DNA of 64,000 nucleotides from Trichosporon coremiiforme. Taxonomy: Eukaryota; Basidiomycota; Tremellomycetes; Trichosporonales; Trichosporonaceae. Location: assembly GCA_039545355.1 (NCBI GenBank), contig BCJJ01000024.1, forward strand, positions 620,001 to 684,000, read 5' to 3'. Below are positions 16,819 through 30,852 of this stretch, one piece after another (within the stretch, counting starts at the first letter, position 1; the number at the start of each line of letters is the position of its first letter). The translations under genes were made by a program, and so were the position numbers. The notes beneath the pieces are model-generated. The model had not been told where the DNA came from. It saw only the letters and a program-made list of their open reading frames with translations, and made no database searches.

Positions 16819-19019
16819 GGTGTTGGGTGAGGAGGGGATGTGTAATGAAAGTGTCAAGAGGAGAAAAGTGGAACCGAGAAAGGATGCCGAGTTGATATGT
16901 ATTCTTGAATCAAGAAAGTGTCTTTGTAATGGTGTTGCGTCGGTGGCCGGCGGTGAGTGCGGTGTGAGGCGAGTGATGGTTAAAGCGGGGGAGGTGCAAG
17001 GGAGTGCAAGAGGTGGGCCAGGTAAGGCAGGTGAAAAGTCACCGATGGGGGTAGGGGCTGAGGACGAGGTTCAAGCCGGGACAATGATGGTCCGTTTACG
17101 ACTTTAATGGCGCAGTTGTAAGACGCAGGATCGCAGGCAGGGGAGCGAGCTAAGGAAGGACTAGTCTAGTCACAGGTTAGGTTCGGTGTGTGGATGCTGT
17201 ATATCCTCTTTCCGCTGGATCCGCGTGATGTCAGGTACGTCGATGAGCTGGCGTAAGCAGCCGGGGATAATATACGATACGCACACCGCGGACCCGGCCA
17301 ACCCGGCACTCGGGCGGCAAGGCGGCAACGCAAAGGCGGGGTACACCAGGTACACCATAGGGGGCCGGACACAGCCAACCCAGCCAGGCCAGTGTCCAGG
17401 GGCAAGGGGGGAGGGAACCCTCCAGGCCTCCAAGGGGAACGGCCAAAGTGCGTACGGCTGATCCTGCACTGTCAGGGCTGTCAGGGCCGGTACATCTTGG
17501 CTCTTCAGCATCGGTTCTTGCCGAGAACAGGCCGACTGGACTGTCCTCGACCTCTGCTCCGCGGCACGTATCGAGCAGCAACCCACATCATGTCAGGCTG
17601 CAAGATAGAACCTGTCCGTCCAAGAGTGCTCGGAATAGCAAAAGCTGCAGCGGCATTCGTAGTTTACGGCTCTATAGCTTTCTAGGCGCTAGCCCCGGTG
17701 CTCTGCAGACCATTTGGACCTTCCCGGCGGACGCCGATGTCGCCGCACGCCCCGCAAGCCCCGCAAGCCGCGACTTACCACGAAGCATGCGTCATGCGCT
17801 CAAGCATACCATGTAGCCGCCGGAGGCGTACGGACGTGCCGCGGGGAAGACACAGCAGGACGAGGGGCGCGGGCGAGCCGGCTGCTGGGTGAGACTCTGC
17901 GGAATGCAAGTAGAATGATGTGCACGCATTCGGAACGACATACGGTGTGCTCCACTTTGCCTCGTTTCGCTGCACGTCTCGTTGAAAACGTCTCGCTGTG
18001 ATGAATCGCGTTCGGCGATCCGCAACGGCGCAACTAACGGAACCACGGAGATGCATCTCGCTGTCATTCGCTGCAGGCGACGTCGGCCGGCGGCTCCAGC
18101 TCTCCCCAGACTTGGCATTGCTGGTCGGCGAGCTGCGCGAGTGGCGTCAGGACATGCATTGCGATGGTGCAAACGATACTTGGGATGTCTGCACAAGTCT
18201 GGCTGGCATGCATGCCAGTTGCAGTGGCGCAGTGGGCCAAAGTGTGCCCAGGTGAGACGGCAGATCTGGGAGCGTCGGGTCGCTCGCTCCCCTCGGTGGG
18301 GATCGGTGGCTCGCTCGGGTCGTGAAAGTGGCTCCGCAAGCAAAGCACAAGCAGCCCGCAGCAACAGCACCGCGCTAAGAGTCGTCTGAGCACCAGGAGG
18401 CTCAGAGACTCCGGGCCGGATTGACTTTGCGCCGCGACAGCATGGGGTTCTTGGCCGTAGTGCCCAAGAGCCACAGGGTCCAGCCTCAGGACGCCTCAGG
18501 GCCGGACGACAGACCGACTCCACATGCCTCTTGCTCTCTCTTGCTGGCTCTTCTGCCGTGGCGCCCGGAATCACGAAACGTCGCTTGCGTCGCTTAACAC
18601 CGTACTTGTGCGGGTGCGTTCAGCCTGTACGCAGGGAGGCGCATATGCCCGACGCTTTAGTCGCCGGTGCGTGCACCCATGCACACCTCGCCCATATGCC
18701 CATGCGATCACTCCTCGACCCTCGCCCGACGGCCTGCCCAATGATCGTGCAATCGTGACTCAGACACATGTCCGGATCCGCCCCGCACTCGTTCTCGCGC
18801 TCGGCGGACTCGGCGCCGGGCATGGGTTTCTCCCCATCATTTACTCTGCGGCCAATACGCATACGCCGCTCGCCTGCCGCTCGCCGTTGCCGCACCCATA
18901 ACGCAACGACTTGTTACGTTTGCAGATCTGCAGATCCGGCGCCCGGCTGAGTGTCACTATGCCATAGGCCGGAGATGTGCCAAGAGGCGGTAGAGCCGAG
19001 AGGGGGGAGGATCGGGGGT

Positions 19020-19081
<62 letters not shown>

Positions 19082-22000
19082 ATCTGCCTGCGCTCCCGTA
19101 ATGCATACGGCTGCGGCGGCTGGGGATGGGACAGACTGCGCGCTGTGCGGAAGTGAGGCGGCAAGTCTGATCGTTAGAGCGCCGTCGGCCTGCGCCGGGA
19201 GGTGGTACACGGTAGAAAACGAAGTGCACGACTGCGCAGGCCCGAGTCTCGCCCAAAGGTACAGAGAGATCTGCCATTCCTCGTTTGGCTATAGGTCTTG
19301 GGTATCTCGCAATACCTTGGGTCCACGATAGTGTCACCTGTGGACGCCTGGCGCGCCGGGCGGTAAACGGGAACCGAGCAAGGATCCGCCCTCGCGAGCT
19401 GACAGGTAGGATGGACGGCTCGCTACGCTCGCTGAACTCGGTGGGCCATGGACGATCGCAAGCGAGCGGCTCTGAGGTCGAGTCGGGCACGCACCGAGTG
19501 ATCCTGGGTGTGCCTGCACCGTGCCTGGGGTGCACGCGGTACCACCAGGTCCTACCCAGGTCCACCCAGGTCCACCGGATCCACTCGGTCGCACTCCGGG
19601 ATATCGGCCTCGCTTTCGCTGGGCAAAGGCTGGGCAAACCCCACGCCCAGCCAAAGGACACAGGGAGCGGAAAGGAGCCCTGTGCGGCCTCTGCATCCGG
19701 CATTGACCCCGGCAATCCCTTCATAACTCACTCACCCAAAAACACGCGTCCATGCAGGCCAATGCATCCAGCGGCGTCCTTCTGCGGACCACAGTAAACC
19801 CAGGGTCTTCGTAATGGGCCGAGCGTAAAGTGTCCGAACTCTCTTAGTCAGTCGTCCCAGGCCGTAGTGCCAACGGAACTGGTGCTTGGGCGTGCGCAAG
19901 CTTTGCTGCATGCAGCTTGCAGCTGGCGGAGAGCACGCGAGTGCGGGATACATGTACCCCACTCTTTACTTTGCTCCTTACTTTACCCCGCTTCGCCGCT
20001 GGCTGGCGCTTACGCACAACCATGACTTAACGGTCACAGGGCGTGCACGCTTGATGGCCTTCGGCCTCGAGGACAGGTGACTCAGACTGACATCCTGGGT
20101 ACGCTATACATAGAGTCTCGGGATCCCCGAGCCACGCTACGGGCAGCTCAAGGGGATGATCACCACTAGCGGCGAACGCATAGGCGGAGTGTTGGCGGCA
20201 ATCAAGCAGGACGGAGTGGGTGCTGTGCTCGGTGACCCAGTGACCCAGTGACTCTCCTAGCTGCCTAGCGACGGGTCCGAACCGAACGACTCGACTGACT
20301 CGATATACGACTGACAGCGCGCTAGTCGCTATACTTGGCACTCGCTAGGGTGGTTTAGCGCCAGATCGAGTGTCCGTCTGTGTTTCTCTACTGACTCTTC
20401 ATGCCCTGTGGCTCTGTTTAGGTCAACCGGTTCAACTTGATCCACTCTGATCGAGGCGTTCTAAACCGCGCCGAACTTGGTCGCCTCCATCACCTCCGCC
20501 CGCATTTGACACCTCCGCTTTCCAGTTCCAACGCTTGAACCCCGCTGGGCCATTCACTGTGATGCGGGGTTATCACACTCTAACGGCCTCTGGACGCTAG
20601 TGCACGACTGTAGTGTCATGGGAAAGTTGATCCGAGGCGGTGCCCTCAGCAAGTGAACGTGGGCGGGCATCGCAGTGTCGGCTGATTTTTCTCCCAGGCA
20701 CACCTGAACTCCTGTCGTCGCGACACATGAGGCTTTGCATTGCCTCGTTTCATGCTCACAATAGCACACAACCAGCTGGACTTCTGCTGCTGACGATACT
20801 GACTGTGCATGTCTGTGGTGGGAACCGACACCTGGCTGATGTCGCAGTGTGCACATGACTTGGTTTCAGCGAAATGAAACGATGCGGTGTCGTTTGCGAA
20901 ACGATGCGGTGCTGGGAGGAACGAGATGAAGAACTGGGGGTGGCACGTCGATCGACCGCTCCGCGTGATCACAGCGGCACGGAGGCGGAGTCGGGGACCT
21001 GAAGGGCCGAGATCGTGCGTCCCAAGCAGCTGACCCCGGACGTACAGTACCTCACACTTAGGTCGGAGTCGAGGCGAAATGTGGCACCGCAATGTGTGCT
21101 CCGACAACGGCATCGGGTCTGGACTCGGAGAATCGCTCGGAGTACTACGCTCGGAGCGTCGGGATGTTCCCACGTACAGCAACGATGCACCGCTGCCGTC
21201 TGAAACATGTGCTGACACGTCTGCCGACCTGCCTGTTTGTGCCGAGGAACGAGTCACGCCGACACTCCGTGGCGGACCAACGCTGTACTCCGACGACAAG
21301 GGAGTTGTGGCATCGGTACCGGCGTCGCGTCCTCGTTACTGCTTCGAAACACGGCAGTGCTCGAGTGCGAGATGGGGCACGTTTGGTTTGGACTCGGAAG
21401 ACGAGACGGGGCCGCTAGACGTCGAGAGATGGTGTGACACTCCGACACCGATCGGAACTGACATCGCAAACAGCCGCCTAGTGCTGCATAGACACCTGCA
21501 CAGCTCGGTGACTTCTGAGGTATGCATTCAAACCATCTATCGCATTCTGTGACTCTGGTGCGGCACGTAGCAGCGCCTCGCTCGATCGCTCTCGCGGGAC
21601 GGAGGTGAAGGCACGACTGGCGGTGGTCGGACAGTACCTGGACTCACGGTCCGCCACGTCGGGATGCTGGTGGCAGTGCTGTGGCCCATATCTCTAACTG
21701 CAGTCGAACCCCAACTCCGGAGCGAGCGGAGGCGCCTGGAGGGCTGCTGCCGACGAGGGCTGAGGTGTCAACTGGTGTTTGACTTGGCGACAAGTGGCAC
21801 CGCCGTCGCAGTGTGTCGGTTTCAAGGCGCGCTGCATCGCTGTCTTCGCTCAGCGACTGTGTCACCTTTCAGTGTCGTATTGAAACGTCTGCTGGTCTCA
21901 GACGCGGCAACGCACACCGCTTAGCTGTACTGCCCAGCCCCATCTTCGACACGATGTGCATTCACGTCGCCCGTCCATCATGCTTAAAGGCGGAGACTGG

Positions 22001-22231: not shown

Positions 22232-25200
22232 CTGAGGTCAGCTACACTGGGCATGCCCCTTCAGCTGTGACCTACCTGGCAAGCTGAATCACCTCCAACT
22301 CGACCTCCTCGTTGTTGCTGGTGTCAGTTTTCATTGGACATTTTGGCAACCCGCCTCATTCCGCTGACAGCTCATCGGGCATCAGTAGATGCTGGTGGAT
22401 GGCCTGGCTGTCAGTCAGCTACGAGTTCCCGGGACCGGAGCTTTGACTCACGCCTTCGGGGGGGGGGGGGGGGGACAAACAATGTAAACCTGCTTTGGAC
22501 TGGTGTTCAGCTTGCACAGTCGTAGTAGCTGACTCTCGGTGCTCACGCGCTCGGGTGTCCGATGGGCATCTTTAGTTCACCCCAGTCTGCGGCTGGCGGG
22601 CTTGACTGTCTGTTAGCTACAGTATGCGTGGCTGGCTAGCTGCTACTAACTGGCGCATGGGCATGGAGATCCTCCTGTTCTGGTGGTCAGCTCTGCGCCC
22701 ACGAAATACAACTGTGACTCACAGACGGAACGAGTCTCTCACTTAGGGAGCCTGGTCTTGCAGGCGCGACCCTGGGTCACTCTGAGTGTCAGCTTGTTCA
22801 GCCTAGGCGAGCTCAGCTTACCCTCAGGGCCAATGGCTCAGCAGCATTGTCAAGTCATCGTAGCGCGAAAGGCATGCCTGAGGTCAACTGCTTGGCTGAC
22901 GTGTGTAGCCTTGAACATTCGACTCACGAGTCCGAGCCACCGTTCCCCCCCACTGATCCGCTCGGCGCTGCCGTCAGCTTTGTTGGAGATCCGGCGAGCT
23001 GAAATCACTGTTGCATTGCAGAGGTTGCTGCTTGGCGCCAACGAGCCTTCTGACAATGCTGGCGGTCAGCTACACTCTGCAAGTATCAGCTTAACCTCAC
23101 CGCTCTGCTCGCTTTGGAGCGAAAACCCCACGCAAGACCGAGTAACTCTGCTGGTTAGCTTTTGGTGGAGCCATTACTGTACAAGCTGTTGGCTCACTGG
23201 TGGTATCAGCAGTGCTCCAGCTAGGCTGGTGGTGGGGCCAGCCGCTGCCCGCTCAGCATCGTCATATCCGTGGTCGGTCCACTTTCCCGCGTGTGAGGTG
23301 AGCTATTCCTAGCTGTGCCTCACCCTCTCGGCTGGGAGCTCAGCGCCATCGCTGCCGGCGGCTTGACTCTCTGTGCTTCCCTGGCGATCAGCTCAGATGC
23401 CCGGTTAGACTAGCTGTGACTTACCGTTCCAGGTGAACGGCTGCCGTCGATGTCTCAGACATGAGCCTAACTAGCGTCCGCACCTCTTACCACTGAGACT
23501 CGACAGACTTCGCATTGGCTGGCCCGCTGGGTGTTGCTGGCTGTCAGCTTGGACGGAATCCGCGAGCTGTGGCTTGCCAAAGCTATAACTCACTAGACGC
23601 CGATAACCCTCCCATCGGTGGGAACAATGCTGGCAGTCGGCTTCAGCTACCCTAGCTTCAGTACAACCGTGATAGCGTTCACTCACCGCTGAAAGACATC
23701 ATGTGCATGATGGACTCCACGGCCAATCTGTCGGTCAGCTGGAAAGGATCGTACGAGCTCTGAGTTGCCCCTCAATGCCAACAGCCAAAGGCACTGTAGC
23801 TCGCCGGTAGTCAGCCGGGCCATCGTTATGCTACTGCACATGTAGCTTCGAGCTTCAGAACTACCCACCTTGCAGTGTCGATGACCTTGACATCGGTGGG
23901 TCGGCCCGGTAGCTGGACGGCGCTGATCGTCAGCTCAGACGATAGCTACACGGCTGTGGCTCACCATCTTCGAACATGACAGCTGAGCGTGAACGAATAC
24001 CGCAAGTGTCTGCGCGCAGCTGGCGTCAGCTGCACGGGCAAGGGATATAGGCAGCTGGTGCCTACCGTTCCGACCATCGAAGCAACAGCCATGAGAGCTC
24101 CTCAGCAGCGCTGCTGGTAAGCTCTACTCCAAACCTTTCATAGCTCTGACCCACCCCTTCGATTAGCAGCGCACCAAAGATGTTCTTCGCATGGGCAGGT
24201 TGTGAGCAGCTGTCGGTCAGCTGTGGCGAACGGGTGCTAAGCTACATACCGTCAGCACTTCTGCGCCGCCTGTTCAGCTCGCTGCGCTCCCCGCCTGCTT
24301 TCTGGGTACTGGCCATCAGCTATTGGACGGGGGTTACGCAGCTGCGACTCACAAGTCTCCTCCGTGCTTCTGCGCTTGTCAATCGTAGCAAGGAGCAAGG
24401 GCGCATTGTTTGGAAATCGACCTTTGAAACATGCGCCCAAGAGCTGTCCTCATCGGCATCGAGACTGCGTTGCGTTGGGGGCTGGGTGTTAGCTCACAGA
24501 TACCGGGCCACGAGCTGATACTCACGCCCGCTCAAAGAAGCACACTGACAGCGGACAGGGATAGCCCAAGTTGACGCCAAGCCCGACATCGCACTGGCTG
24601 TTAGCTAGAGTGGATGGTTGGCGAGCGGGGAAACTCACGCGTGCGCTCTCCAGCATCCTCGCGTCGTCGTCGTTGACTGGGACGGGCTCGTAATGCGAGA
24701 AGTATCCCCGGCGAAGGGGAAGATTTCTGAGCCAGAAGAAGCATGATCCTGTGCGCAGGGGCGGCCAGTGGTTTAAGCTCTTCCGCCACTCTGACAGTCA
24801 GCTATCGCCATGGTCTATGGACGGTGAAGCTTACCTTTCTCACCTTTGCGAACTCCAGACTCCTTGCCGTGTCGCCGACGTGAGAGTAGTGCGGCGATAA
24901 ACCCCCCGACCGCCTCCTCGATTCCTGAGACTGGAGTCGCAAGGTCGCTTTCAGAACTGGCTGTCAGCTGTCACCCTCTTGGAGGTAGAAGCTCACCAGC
25001 GTCCTCCTTCAGCTCCCCCCCCCTCCCCCCCCTCGCATTCAGCGTCGTTGACAGACCAGACCACAGCAAAGTCCGTCCCTGGTCAAGTCCAGGAGCACGT
25101 AACATGCTGCCTGTCAGCTATCGAAACCCAATGGCCCTAGCATGAAACTAGCCTTCGTCGACAGACGACCTGATACCCTGTCTCGCTTACAGGGTGGCGA

Positions 25201-25675
25201 CGACGTTCCCAACAGTCTTCCGGAGCCCCTGACGAGGTCACCATTGAGACATGGGGAGGATGATCTGTGGGTCAACTCACGGCAAGGGCGCACAGCTCTC
25301 ACAACTCACGTGCAACGCGGGCATCATCAGCAGCTGCTCCGTCAGTTCATGGTGCTCACATCAGGGAAACTGACAGCAAGGACGTGAGCGGAGACCTGAT
25401 GGTCAGCTCAGTGTTGGGCCCCCCGAAGCTCATCTCTTCGAGAAGAGACTCTGCTTCGGAGCAGCCTTCAGTGCGTAGCCTGGGTTCAGCTCAAAGATCA
25501 GCGATAGGGCAGCTCACCTTTCCGGAGCGAGAGTCCGCATCGGAGGGACGCTCAGTGAGAAGACTTGGGGTCAGCTCACTGCAGGATCCTTGCCAGCTCA
25601 CCTCCCCAAACATCCCGCGTTGAAGGAGCGTTCAGTGCATAGACTGGAGTCAGCTTACCAAACCAAGAGCACCTA

Positions 25676-25702
25676 AACTAGGGTCACAGGTTAAGTCGAA
25701 CG
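25676..25702 (+). repeat. Left terminal inverted repeat of Tc1 element
   Basis: Twenty-seven bases, exactly complementary to 27406-27432. Sequence similarity stops directly after CGAACG, which defines the inner edge. Confidence 0.9.
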
Positions 25703-26117
25703 GATGCGCACGGTCCCGTCATCGTCAACCTCGCCGTGGCTCATGTTCTGATCCATAACTCATGCAACGGTACTCTTTATGCCTAGAAACTCCGCGTAGA
25801 GCCGAAAGGAATGCTTGGCAGCTCGGACAAATGGAGCTGCAGAGCGCACCGTGCATACTGGCCACCACACCACCACAATAAAGCTGCATGTCACCACCCT
25901 CCTTATCGCCCTAGATCTCAGCCACCGAGGCCTGTGCTTGCCCCAAATCTTTCATGTATCAAGCTCCGAAGCTGGGCTTTTGGAAAATCCAAGAATTGAG
26001 TCGAAACCATGCATATCGGCAGCGGAGTCCGTCCGACTGTCCATCTTTGTGGCATATAAGCCTCCTTGAGTGCCACTTCTCTTCCACAACAGCTCTACCT
26101 CATCAGAACTTGCAGCT

Positions 26118-27258
26118 ATGCCTCGCCCTTGCCTCACACCTCGCCGCCGCGCCAAGATTGCGTCCTTGGCTCGCTACCGCAGCTATTCCTCTGTCGCCTG
26201 GGAGTACAACGTCGCCAAGAGCACTGTGGGTTACTGTGTGATGTTAGCTCGCCTCCAGGCTCTCATTCCACCTGCTCTGGCTGTTCTGAACCCTGTCCAG
26301 GGGATCCGCATCCCCCGCAGCCACACCAAGCTCACTCCCGACAACCTCAGAGCGATCTACGAGGTCTTTGAGGCTCAGCCCTTCGCCAGCAATCGTGAGG
26401 TGTTGGACACTCTTGCAGACAGAGACATTGTCCTCTCTCTCATGACTCTGCGCCGTGCACGTCGCCAGCTTGGTTATGGCCGCTTTGTGGCTCTTGTGCG
26501 GCCGTATCTAAGCCCCCTTCACAAGGAGAAGCGTCTCGCTTATGCTCTTGAGCAGCAGCGACTCTTCCAAGAGTGGAGGAAGGTGATCTTCTGTGACGAG
26601 GTCCCTCTCTACATTGACCAGCTCCACAGAGCATATGTGACGCGCCCCATCGGTTCTGACCGTGCCAATGAGCGGTGAGTGTCTTTCCTGACGTTCTACA
26701 TGCTGTGGAAGAGTGCTGACACTCAGGTACATCCAGTACACCTCCAGATCGAGCTGTGGGTCGATTATGTGCTGGGGGGCTATCTGGTATGGCGGCAAGT
26801 CGAAGCTGGTGTGGTTTGACACCTCCCAGTCGACCTCCAAGCGCAAGGGAGTCAATGCGGCCATCTATCGCACCCAGGTGACTGAGAAGGAGTTGTTTGA
26901 TTGCTGGAAGCGTGTCAAGACTCAGTGGCGTGGTTATGGCTTGCCCTGGGTTGTAGAGGACAACGCTGTCGTCCACACAGCCAAGGCCACCCGTGGCAAG
27001 GCAGAGCAACTTGGCATGCGCTTCCTGCCTCACCCTCCCTGCTCTCCTTGCCTCAACCCCATTGAGAACCTTTGGAGCAACCTCAAGCGCCGCCTGGCCC
27101 GTCTCAACCCTCGTCCCACCACCCAGGAGGGGCTATTCGCTGCCGCTACGGAGCTCTGGAACACCTATGATCAGAATGAGATCGACCGACTTATCATGTC
27201 CATGCCTAACAGGATCAAGGACACCATCTCTGCTAATGGAGGACACATTAAGTATTGA
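26118..27258 (+). CDS. Tc1/mariner DD34E transposase
   Basis: Exons 26118-26674 and 26727-27258, separated by a 52-nt intron with GTGAGT donor, CTGAC branch and CAG acceptor; 362 aa, usual for the family. The N-terminal part (about residues 1-110) is a helix-turn-helix-rich DNA-binding region. The catalytic triad is visible: Asp in IFCDEVPLY, Asp in VVEDNAVVH, and Glu in LNPIENLWSNLK, with 34 residues between the second Asp and the Glu. It performs cut-and-paste transposition at TA sites. No stop or frameshift is present, so the protein may be functional. An in-frame GTG at 26070 was rejected as start in favour of ATG 26118. Confidence 0.95.
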
Positions 27259-27405
27259 TCCCAGGTGCACCATGCTTCGTATATAGGTTACCAAGACTCC
27301 CATGCACGTGGAACAACTGTTTATAGAGCAAGAAACATGCATATGCATGAGTTATTCGTGGTTGCAGCGAGGTCGACAGTTCACGGCCTCGTTTGTGGCA
27401 CCACT

Positions 27406-27432
27406 CGTTCGACTTAACCTGTGACCCTAGTT
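27406..27432 (-). repeat. Right terminal inverted repeat of Tc1 element
   Basis: Perfect complement of 25676-25702, followed by the TA duplication at 27433. Confidence 0.9.
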
Positions 27433-28164
27433 TAAGCTCACCTCCCCTGCGAGACTTTTGCCGTGTAACACACCAACAGTCCCCACACAGGGCAAAGGCA
27501 GCTGAGGACATGTGACGTTGGTGCTCAGCTCAGCAGGAGAGATTCCGTAGCTCACCTCCCCGAAACAGAGTGTGCATCAGGCGAAGGAGCACTCAGTGCG
27601 CAGACTTGTAGACTGGAGTCAGCTCTACCTCGCGAAAAGATCTAAGCTCTTCCCAGATCCCCTGCGTGCGACACTCGAGCTCCACAGTCGATACTCGCGC
27701 CTGGCGCTGGTGGTCAGCTACAAGAAGGGGGCTAAGCTCACCCCCGTCCAACACTGGATAACAGCTGCGTCTGGTGCTTGAATTCAGCTCCTGAATCATG
27801 GGTTTGCAGGTCCGCGGCTCGCCCTTCTCGTCTGTGGGTGTCTGCCTCGAGTGCGAGAGCAAGTCGGAGCATACGAGTCTTGACTGCAGGCAGCTAACTG
27901 GAGGTGGGCAACTTACCTTCTCCAGCGAGAGGCTGCGTTGGGATCACTCAGCAAGAAGACTGGGGTCAGCTCCAACACTGAGATGATATGAGCTCACCCC
28001 TGATCCTCTGCGTGGACACTCGATACCTCTACAGTGGATACTCGCGCGCGGGCTGGGAGTCAGCTACAGTACATGGACGGTGGGTGAGCTCACCTCCCCG
28101 CAACTGGATGACCGTCGCGTACGGATCTGGTGGTCAGCTCAACGTTCGACAGTTGCCAGCTCAT

Positions 28165-28688: not shown

Positions 28689-30441
28689 TTAACAGATGAA
28701 CATGAGGTTCGTGTCGATGGGGTGCGACGCCGACAGCTGGGGTTTCTGGTCGTAGCGGCCCGCGAGCTCGTCGCGGATCGAGCGGAGGAGCATGACGTAG
28801 CTCTGGCGCGGGTTCTTCGTTAAAGCCGCAATAAAGGCGTAACTCATAGCCCCCGTAGCACGTCAGATCCGTTAGCGCTTGCAAAAGAGGAAGAAGAAAC
28901 AGTGGAGGACATGGATGGATGGAGGAGGTGGATGAGTGGTGGTTTCGTGAGAGTGTGGTATGGTGGAGGTGGAGGTTTGGTGGAGGCATGGTGGAGGTCA
29001 GATCTGGTGGTGGCAAAACTCACCCTGCTTCCTGCGTATCGGCGGAGGTCTGCGAGTCCTTGCATCCGGACCACATGACGACGTCAGCGGGCGACGTGCG
29101 GGTCTGCTTGGTGACCTCTCCCGCCTTCGAGTTGGATCCCATGAGGTTCTTGCCGACGCTCATGAGGCCCGAGACGACGCCACCAATGTCGCCGCGGAGG
29201 TACGACATGCCTGCGCCGAGCACGCCCTGCCCCGCCTCGGCGAGCAGGTTGGGTTCCTTGATCTTGCCCTCAGTCGAGTACACGTAGGGCAGGTCGAGAC
29301 AGGTGGCCGAGTGGCACGAGTCGAAGATGGCTGTGAGGCGGCATCCGGCGGGGAGAGGGCGGACGAGGCGCATGTGCACTTGTGTGTCAGTTACCACCAG
29401 GACTACACAACTTACGCTCGTCGTCGACAATGTGGCCCGCCTGCTTGAAGTCGAGGGGGTAGATGACCTCGTCGTAACCGTCGTCCTCGTCTCCGTCCTG
29501 GTCCTTGGTCTGGCCGCCGTGGCCCGAGTAGTGGAAGAAGAGGGCGTCGTTGGCGCGCGCGCCCTGCACGAGCCACTGCATCGCCGCAATCATATTGGCG
29601 CGCGTCGGGATCTGGCGCGGGTTTCGCGAGTCGTCCGTCAGCACCACCATGTCGTCGGGCTTGTACCCGTGGCGCTCGATCAGGAACTTTTGCACGTTGT
29701 GCACGTCGTTGATGCACCCGCGCAGCTCGCCCGACTGGCCGCGGTAGTTGATGCCGATCAGGAGTGCCTTTCGCTTGCCAGTACCTGATTAAGCAATGTC
29801 GGGGGCCAAAGCGCGGCGCGAATCAGTGTCAGCTGCCATAGTTACACGTCGCCACTGCGGTACTCACACTGCGAGTACTGGAAGTACGGCTGCTGCTGCT
29901 GCCCATGGTGGCCCTGGAACTGAGGGCCGTAGTGCTGAGTTCCAGACGGGGGGGCTGAGGTTAGCTGAGGTTCGATGCCGCAGCTTACGAGGAGGAGCGC
30001 CCTGGGGAGGCTGGTAGTGCTGCTGGGGCGGGCCCGACGGGGGCTGGTAACCCGCGGCGGTGGGCTGGTAGTGGCTAGGCGGGGGAGCACCGGTGGGAGG
30101 CGGGAAGTGCTGCTGCTGGTAGTTCTGAGGAGGGGGAGCCTGCGGGTATCCGCCCTGCTGGTATCCTCCCTGCTGGTACCCGCCCTGCTGCTGGTATCCG
30201 CCCTGCTGGGGGTATCCTCCGTAGCTGGATGTCAGTGCTGTCGCCTGGTCGCCGACGTCACAACAACATTGCGGCCGGCGTCGTCCGGAGGCTTGGACGG
30301 CGGACGCCAAGACTCGGGCCAATCATCACCGCCATCGCTTACTCACCCACGCTGCTGACCGCCGTACTGCTGCTGGGGCGGGGGCGGGTTGTTGGACCAC
30401 TGGGGGGGAGGGGGGTTGTTCTGATACTGGTTGTAGGCCAT
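28689..30441 (-). CDS. Type I metacaspase
   Basis: Six exons (30441-30347, 30224-29989, 29954-29868, 29784-29416, 29378-29024, 28842-28689) give 431 aa. The first 135 residues are a Gln/Pro/Tyr-rich prodomain with GYQQGGY-type repeats, typical of fungal type I metacaspases. The peptidase domain follows: catalytic His in FFHYSGHGG (about 228) and catalytic Cys in DSCHSAT (about 284). Expected role is a Ca-dependent Arg/Lys-specific cysteine protease linked to stress response, protein-aggregate handling and cell death. The end, [14 protein letters not shown], matches the family. The last intron ends in GG where AG is expected before the conserved GAMS segment; the nearest AG lies nine bases downstream and drops three residues (Ala-Met-Ser) in frame. 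The other junctions are canonical. Confidence 0.93.
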
Positions 30442-30852
30442 GATGCTTGTGTTGTGACAAGATACGGCTTGCAACGATGAGAAAGCAAGTTGACAACAAC
30501 AGGGCAACAGGGCAACCCACGTCAATGAATAGCTGGCTGGGCGCTGCACAGGTGGTGATCGACGCGTGCGGCCTACGGGACTATGGGCGACGGCGGCGAT
30601 GCGGAACCATTTGCACGGTGGGTGAGGCTAAAAGTAGCCAGGCCACCCAGGTAGCGTCCTTCTACGTACGGCCAAAGCCGCCAAGGCCGAATCTGACAGC
30701 CGCCCGCACGAAAAGCGCAGACGCGCGGCAGCTGTGCAGCTGTGTCCGACGCTTAGTCAACGTGTGCTATGCATATAACTGATCGCTAAGTCACTCTACA
30801 ATACTGCTGTTGTCTGTACTGCTGTCTGCTGCTGCTCGCCGCGGCCGCCCTC
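30442..30852. other. Intergenic, metacaspase promoter side
   Basis: Holds the upstream region of the metacaspase gene and the 3' end of the MBF1 gene; both are read on the minus strand. No further gene, TATA box or repeat was recognised. Confidence 0.5.

Follow-up and report, generated by a model that had tools for sequence, protein, structure and literature searches.

What kind of genetic unit would be cut by about 35 tiny introns within roughly 4 kb? The question is raised by a 64,000-nucleotide stretch of the Trichosporon coremiiforme genome (contig BCJJ01000024.1, positions 620,001 to 684,000 of the forward strand; hereafter the window), in which intron donor words and branch-acceptor words are chained along the minus strand from position 28164 to position 22232. 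A first-pass annotation, made from the letters alone, had described this array as about 40 stereotyped mini-introns separated by micro-exons, and had proposed a gene of extreme intron density, a burst of intron gain or the fossil of such a burst. We interpret the array, with about even confidence, as a many-intron transcription unit that would be spliced, mostly non-coding and under selection for splicing; its transcription, splicing and function are predicted from sequence.

Intron signals in the array exceed chance expectation

We scored the best non-overlapping chain of introns separately for the two parts of the array, which are divided by a transposon. In the main part (25673-22225) the chain scored 177.9, whereas 30 Markov shuffles averaged 41.0 and reached at most 64.6, and the reverse complement gave 44.5. 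In the part upstream of the transposon (28170-27435) it scored 36.7, compared with a shuffle maximum of 17.6 and with 9.9 on the reverse complement. The donor and branch signals therefore exceed the shuffled control that the first-pass annotation had named as a check. The strand bias is equally clear when acceptor-side anchors are counted with no donor demanded: there are 22 in 3449 nt (6.4 per kb) on the sense strand of the main part and none antisense. The background, taken from 22 other stretches, is 78 anchors in 440 strand-kb (0.177 per kb), i.e. the array is 36-fold enriched. A GTRNG donor lies 29-58 nt 5' of the anchor in 17 of the 22 cases, against an expectation of 6.4 (standard deviation (sd) 2.1). 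These results confirm the array at its coordinates and on its strand. Loose intron matches are frequent in shuffled sequence (a mean of 25 weak introns in the shuffled main part), which favors the view that intron-like words merely happen to cluster here, in intergenic DNA rich in GC, but the chain scores and anchor counts refute that reading, as does the second array at the syntenic locus described below, and we regard its probability as negligible.

The number of introns is softer than their presence. A strict threshold gave 23 strong introns between 22232 and 28164, and curation brought the total to about 36, i.e. 31 in the main part (25601-22232), four upstream of the transposon and one split by it, so that the 'about 40' of the first-pass annotation is a soft figure. 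A loose chain gave 44 (9 + 35), but shuffles treated by the same loose rule gave about 30, so this count alone is uninformative. The weaker introns of the main part were curated by eye and several curated units have weaker donors; 30 of the 31 begin with GT and one has AT at the equivalent place. The median length of the 29 listed array introns is 44 nt, and the acceptors are spaced about 90-105 nt apart in parts of the array. When the introns were aligned, information was confined to the donor and to AGCTGAC...CAG and was near zero in the exons and intron interiors; since the introns had been chosen by their splice signals, only the empty exon and interior columns count as independent.

Array introns carry the ordinary splice signals of the genome

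The array units have the features of the U2-type introns of this genome, i.e. a GTRAGY donor, a CTRAY branch and a YAG acceptor, in the sense orientation of the putative gene. The pattern GTGAGTCACAGCT...AGCTRAC was found at four places in the 42-Mb genome: the array in a second copy of the locus (C1) and three introns inside coding genes, which Pfam identifies as those of an AAA ATPase, a chitin synthase and a transglutaminase-core protein. The same intron words are used in a Y-family DNA polymerase gene (IMS, IMS_C) and in a Rad51-family gene. The donor and branch words of the array are thus the genome's ordinary intron signals and no foreign element, and the suggestion that they were special to the array did not hold.

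To place the density of the array in context, we looked at 20 random 10-kb loci, in which the two densest 2-kb windows contained 10 and 9 strong introns, compared with 12 in the array. Inspection exon by exon covered these two loci, which proved to be the Y-family polymerase (L030, 6726-8581) and the Rad51-family gene (L024, minus strand, 89-1034), both packed with introns of 29-57 nt. Because these loci are nearly as dense, array-like intron density is nothing unusual among the coding genes of this fungus, some of which show it. The earlier description of the density as exceptional therefore holds for the window, but not for the genome, where two of the 20 loci hold coding genes that are nearly as intron-dense. 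They share their intron words with the array, and the polymerase has about one intron per 100-130 nt; they differ from it in having fewer introns and clearly coding exons (1.03 and 0.91 bits per codon, respectively, under a free gene model). Several window genes, by contrast with these intron-packed ones, contain long frames without any interruption.

A second array lies at the syntenic locus

Positions 6886-42204 of the window are collinear with C1 at 1674-1704 kb, with main aligned blocks of about 70-83% identity; the region is thus present in two diverged collinear copies, as it would be in a genome that is hybrid or duplicated. Both flanks of the array can be aligned to C1 (78% identity from 28548 upward, 73% at 21551-21686) but its interior hardly can: the best blastn matches between the two interiors, with 4-base words, cover 22 and 32 nt (E 0.005), and a translated comparison gave only short, weak matches at the protein level. 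C1 nevertheless has an array of about 1.8 kb at the syntenic place and on the same strand; its chain score is 82.4, and no shuffle exceeded 36.8. It is shorter than that of the window and some of its donors have decayed. We infer that the two arrays are orthologous; the intron pattern would then have been kept while the remaining sequence became unrecognisable, which suggests that it may be splicing itself that has been kept.

We used simulated neutral decay to judge how long such a pattern might persist. At four-fold sites of two neighboring genes the copies differ by 0.57 substitutions per site (an amidase gene, 265 sites) and 0.24 (a Cys/Met enzyme gene, 209 sites, 79.4%), which corresponds to about 0.28 and 0.12 for each lineage. 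In 20 runs per rate that began with an idealised array, the mean chain score fell to 135.7 at d 0.1 and to 91.8 at d 0.2 (maxima 156.7 and 116.7, respectively), compared with the observed 177.9. Because simulated neutral decay erases most of the signals, the window copy, if the arrays are orthologous, has not been decaying freely for most of the divergence. The idea of a fossil is consequently unlikely for the window copy, although the weaker C1 copy is possibly a fossil array.

The exons have a sub-normal codon signal

In their best frame the array exons scored 0.12 per codon, compared with 0.70-1.41 for seven coding controls that had also served to train the score, and with 0.01 and -0.02 for intergenic sequence. 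With stops penalised and shuffled exons as the null, the window exons scored 0.10 per codon (z 2.5; antisense z 0.2) and the C1 exons -0.09 (z 1.4), whereas the exons of the polymerase, on which the score was not trained, reached 0.80 (z 14.3); two intergenic pieces gave z 0.2 and -0.8. An open frame was present in 26 of 30 exons, against 27.2 by chance. Under the free gene model the main window array had 0.47 bits per codon and the C1 array 0.61, compared with 0.28 and 0.46 for intergenic sequence; the part upstream of the transposon had 1.01, over 68 codons only. The codon signal and open frame across exons that an ordinary protein-coding gene should show were thus not found, although a faint hint of coding is left.

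Homology searches gave a similar picture. Three overlapping window translations matched no Pfam family, the translation of the C1 gene model gave one sub-threshold Pfam match (DUF2967, E 0.0098), and of the 7998 candidates scored in a protein search with the array, none was a relative at E 0.01. A scan of the window found no tRNA. Neither the window nor L013 yielded an Rfam family at its gathering score, although poorly conserved families could escape such a search. A small nucleolar RNA (snoRNA) host gene was rejected with the same proviso, as no Rfam snoRNA appeared at gathering scores in introns or exons. C/D or H/ACA snoRNAs are, moreover, too large for introns of about 44 nt.

Interpretation of the array

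In the interpretation that we favor, a single transcription unit would begin near 28.2 kb and end near 22 kb, lying downstream of a metacaspase-type gene and in the same orientation. About 35 canonical U2-type mini-introns, with lengths around 44 nt and the branch motif a few nucleotides before the acceptor, would interrupt its primary transcript. The exons between them measure about 50 nt, and their joining by the spliceosome would yield an RNA 2 kb or slightly more in length. This RNA is most likely non-coding because the exons are unlike ordinary protein code; the exon sequence would then be free to change while intron recognition was maintained by selection on splicing. As to its role, the likeliest is that of a non-coding transcript reliant on splicing for stability, export or processing. 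If this is correct, it is the intron architecture, not the sequence, that survives between the two copies of the locus, which would offer a direct test of selection on splicing in the absence of any conserved exon.

Several observations weigh against this interpretation, and most of them would fit an orphan protein gene of about 35 introns that evolves fast, has atypical codon use and has diverged beyond recognition; we regard this as a distinct though minor possibility. Such a gene could account for the weak sense-strand coding excess of the exons, small as it is beside that of a real gene. The free gene model also ranked both arrays above all 40 of 40 exon shuffles (249.0 against a maximum of 240.3 in the window, 157.6 against 122.0 in C1). 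With the splice chain fixed, two frames contained 13 and 12 stops compared with 21.7 expected from composition, and the third contained 21. If weak introns are admitted, a frame-constrained open chain of 36 introns and 1952 nt is possible; it scored 92.3 compared with at most 7.4 in 12 shuffles, although this score stems from the intron signals. Coding genes of like intron density do exist in the genome, but the codon score of the array is one eighth that of a real intron-dense gene, open frames are at their chance level, the interiors of the two copies hardly match as protein and no homologue was found by Pfam or the protein search. The remaining difficulties concern the comparison of the copies. 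The C1 array is the weaker, with a donor at 7 of 10 acceptor anchors against 3.8 expected (sd 1.6). The observed score of 177.9 is compatible with decay at d 0.05 (mean 170.9, maximum 194.3), and the decay test presumes orthologous arrays and used substitution-only runs. A pseudogene, or a remnant left by the decay of a long coding gene rich in introns, would explain the faint coding excess, the decayed donors and shorter array of C1 and the lack of a recognised gene in the sequence downstream. The window copy, however, keeps its splice signals while the remainder has nothing in common with C1, the reverse of neutral decay, and DNA searches with both arrays matched two loci only, with no parent gene; we judge a remnant of this kind to be distinctly unlikely.

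It is also conceivable, although we think it unlikely, that splicing itself is the conserved product: the locus would make a long RNA in which the exon sequence does not matter and dozens of introns are kept because the engagement or cycling of spliceosomes on this transcript has an effect. It may, for example, feed a splicing-coupled small-RNA pathway or sequester splicing factors, and a donor-branch hairpin may aid the recognition of the mini-introns. Growth of the array by copying of an intron + exon unit of about 95 nt, whether as introner-like elements or by tandem duplication, seems to us quite improbable as an explanation in itself, although as an origin it could be compatible with the spliced non-coding unit that we favor. 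The regular acceptor spacing in some stretches, the pieces that some units have in common, and the greater length and higher frequency of AG before the branch CTRAY in array introns (quantified below) would fit such copying. Most units are alike in little but their splice signals, however, and the best repeated pairs within the array reach 73% over 169 nt and 76% over 72 nt. DNA searches, a weak method for 44-nt units, found no dispersed copies: matches were confined to the locus and its second copy, the first search having matched the C1 flank and not the array. Near-zero information outside the splice signals likewise speaks against a near-identical family dispersed in genes, and introner status is not supported, within the low sensitivity of these searches. 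From the first-pass interpretation, the canonical mini-introns with very short exons, the transposon within them and the pairable intron ends stand, while the introner-like element or burst of intron gain is not supported, given the host consensus, the little common unit sequence with weak local repeats, the lack of dispersed matches and the near-equal density of two ordinary coding genes.

Introners (PMC9860276) are, like the array units, numerous short introns of similar build whose ends are in part complementary, whereas the array units were not found as a sequence family dispersed through genes, have little common interior and end in host splice signals. The symmetrical proliferating stwintrons and introns of the Hypoxylaceae also have two ends able to pair, but there (PMC8469720) the inverted repeats are 45-55 nt, compared with 4-7 nt of complementarity in array introns of about 44 nt, which is common to background introns. 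Multi-exon non-coding RNA genes, including fungal snoRNA hosts (PMC3596301), would share with the array an intron-cut non-coding transcript and differ from it in the absence, noted above, of any Rfam family at gathering score.

The array exceeds in intron number the multi-exon non-coding RNA examples known to us. If it is transcribed and spliced as drawn here, it would to our knowledge, which includes a small literature search, be among the most intron-dense fungal non-coding genes.

Donor-branch pairing in mini-introns

The first-pass annotation had pointed out that the unit ends (GTGAGCT and AGCTGAC) could pair, and compensatory covariation in the ordinary introns of the genome supports this. 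As a background we used 103 pattern introns from L014, L015, L020-L039 and the window outside 21-29 kb, of which 10-30 are expected to be false by shuffles and 21 by the count in reversed sequence. AG precedes the branch CTRAY in 16 of 17 window array introns (the single exception being a match within the transposon, which was also included in the array sets of the pairing tests), in 6 of 7 C1 introns and in 42 of the 103 background introns; the median lengths are 43, 46 and 37 nt, respectively. In the background the four branch bases (XYCT) have their complement near the donor in 43 of 103 introns, compared with 22.5 (sd 3.5) for permuted branch words, and when AGCT branches are left out the complement is present in 13 of 61 compared with 7.8 (P 0.03).

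Across the 103 introns, donor positions +6/+7 covary with the two bases that immediately precede CTRAY at the branch. GTRAGCT donors are accompanied by branch AGCT in 28 cases, AACT in none and others in 4, whereas GTRAGTT donors are accompanied by AACT in 10, AGCT in 5 and others in 5 (Fisher 1.6e-6 for the four main cells). By column-wise mutual information the expected pairs reached significance, but so, nominally, did several cells among the 60 shuffled decoys (including donor +7/branch -2, P 0.010), and we therefore relied on the word table and the permutation test. The predicted pairing was 0.61 in 24 array introns compared with 0.32 for shuffled interiors (67% of introns above 0.5), and 0.54 compared with 0.42 in background introns (54% above 0.5). 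Within the array alone the permutation test was not significant (17 of 24 compared with 15.0, P 0.059) because 22 of the 24 branch words are AGCT. The two-sided change in the word table supports a short donor-branch hairpin in ordinary mini-introns. The yeast zipper stems (PMC12350175) join both sites with linkers of 42-85 nt and are absent from most short introns; in the hairpin predicted here the donor and branch-site bases themselves would pair, in introns mostly of 32-45 nt, and the arrangement would be more compact. A small literature search found no description of donor-branch pairing in introns this short. The covariation between donor and branch flank thus yields a concrete, testable claim on how introns of about 32-45 nt are recognised.

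Layout of the array and its neighborhood

All array coordinates are on the minus strand and follow the direction of the putative transcript. The 5' part (27435-28164) contains introns at 28053-28093, 27960-27997, 27884-27916 and 27707-27741. The main part (22232-25643) has exons mostly of 24-74 nt, with one of 11 nt and six of 110-183 nt. Its introns come from the chain and the intron list unless described as weaker, in which case they come from the exon list and, except where stated, the chain. It opens with two introns of 38 nt (25564-25601 and 25480-25517), followed by a weaker one with donor ATGAGC in place of GTGAGC (25396-25433), a weaker one of 26 nt (25334-25359), one of 45 nt (25265-25309) and a weaker one of 84 nt that was curated by eye on the frame-aware chain (25107-25190). 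There follow introns of 40 nt (24957-24996), 44 nt (24791-24834), 45 nt (24594-24638) and twice 44 nt (24482-24525 and 24309-24352), then three with variant donors, i.e. GTATG (24210-24249, 40 nt), GTGGG (24111-24154, 44 nt) and GTAGG (24020-24065, 46 nt), and one of 42 nt (23923-23964). Three weaker introns occupy 23794-23868 (75 nt, frame-aware chain), 23728-23782 (55 nt) and 23630-23686 (57 nt), and are succeeded by introns of 57 nt (23537-23593), 44 nt (23381-23424), 50 nt (23148-23197) and 42 nt (23059-23100), one of 41 nt with donor GTGAT (22968-23008), and others of 50 nt (22878-22927), 40 nt (22782-22821) and 43 nt (22680-22722). Toward the 3' end lie a 45-nt intron with donor GTTAG (22606-22650), introns of 47 nt (22500-22546) and 44 nt (22408-22451), a 51-nt intron with the weak donor GTCAG (22318-22368) and the last intron, of 44 nt with donor GTAGG (22232-22275).

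The two parts are separated by a transposon of 1761 bp on the plus strand (25674-27434), which has perfect terminal inverted repeats of 29 nt, including TA ends, and a Tc-type transposase domain (PF01498) antisense to the array, the combination that marks Tc1/mariner elements. Among 132 candidates, the 40 copies that were scored are full length and listed at 100% identity, and the family is therefore young. The insertion lies within an array intron (25644-27441), whose donor GTGAGCT is at 27441 and whose branch-acceptor AAGCTGACTCCAG ends at 25644; without the transposon this would be a minus-strand intron of about 39 nt by coordinate arithmetic. The repeats, the transposase domain and the split intron bear out the earlier report of a transposon within the array; its position shows a recent insertion and has no bearing on the function of the array.

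Downstream of the array, about 4 kb (17200-21500) lack a recognised gene; the conserved patches here are 20619-20954 and, on the minus strand, 21551-21686, the flank that aligns to C1. Upstream, the neighbor is the metacaspase-type gene (Peptidase_C14 by Pfam; 28689-30627, minus strand, outer limit approximate), with its stop codon at about 28689.

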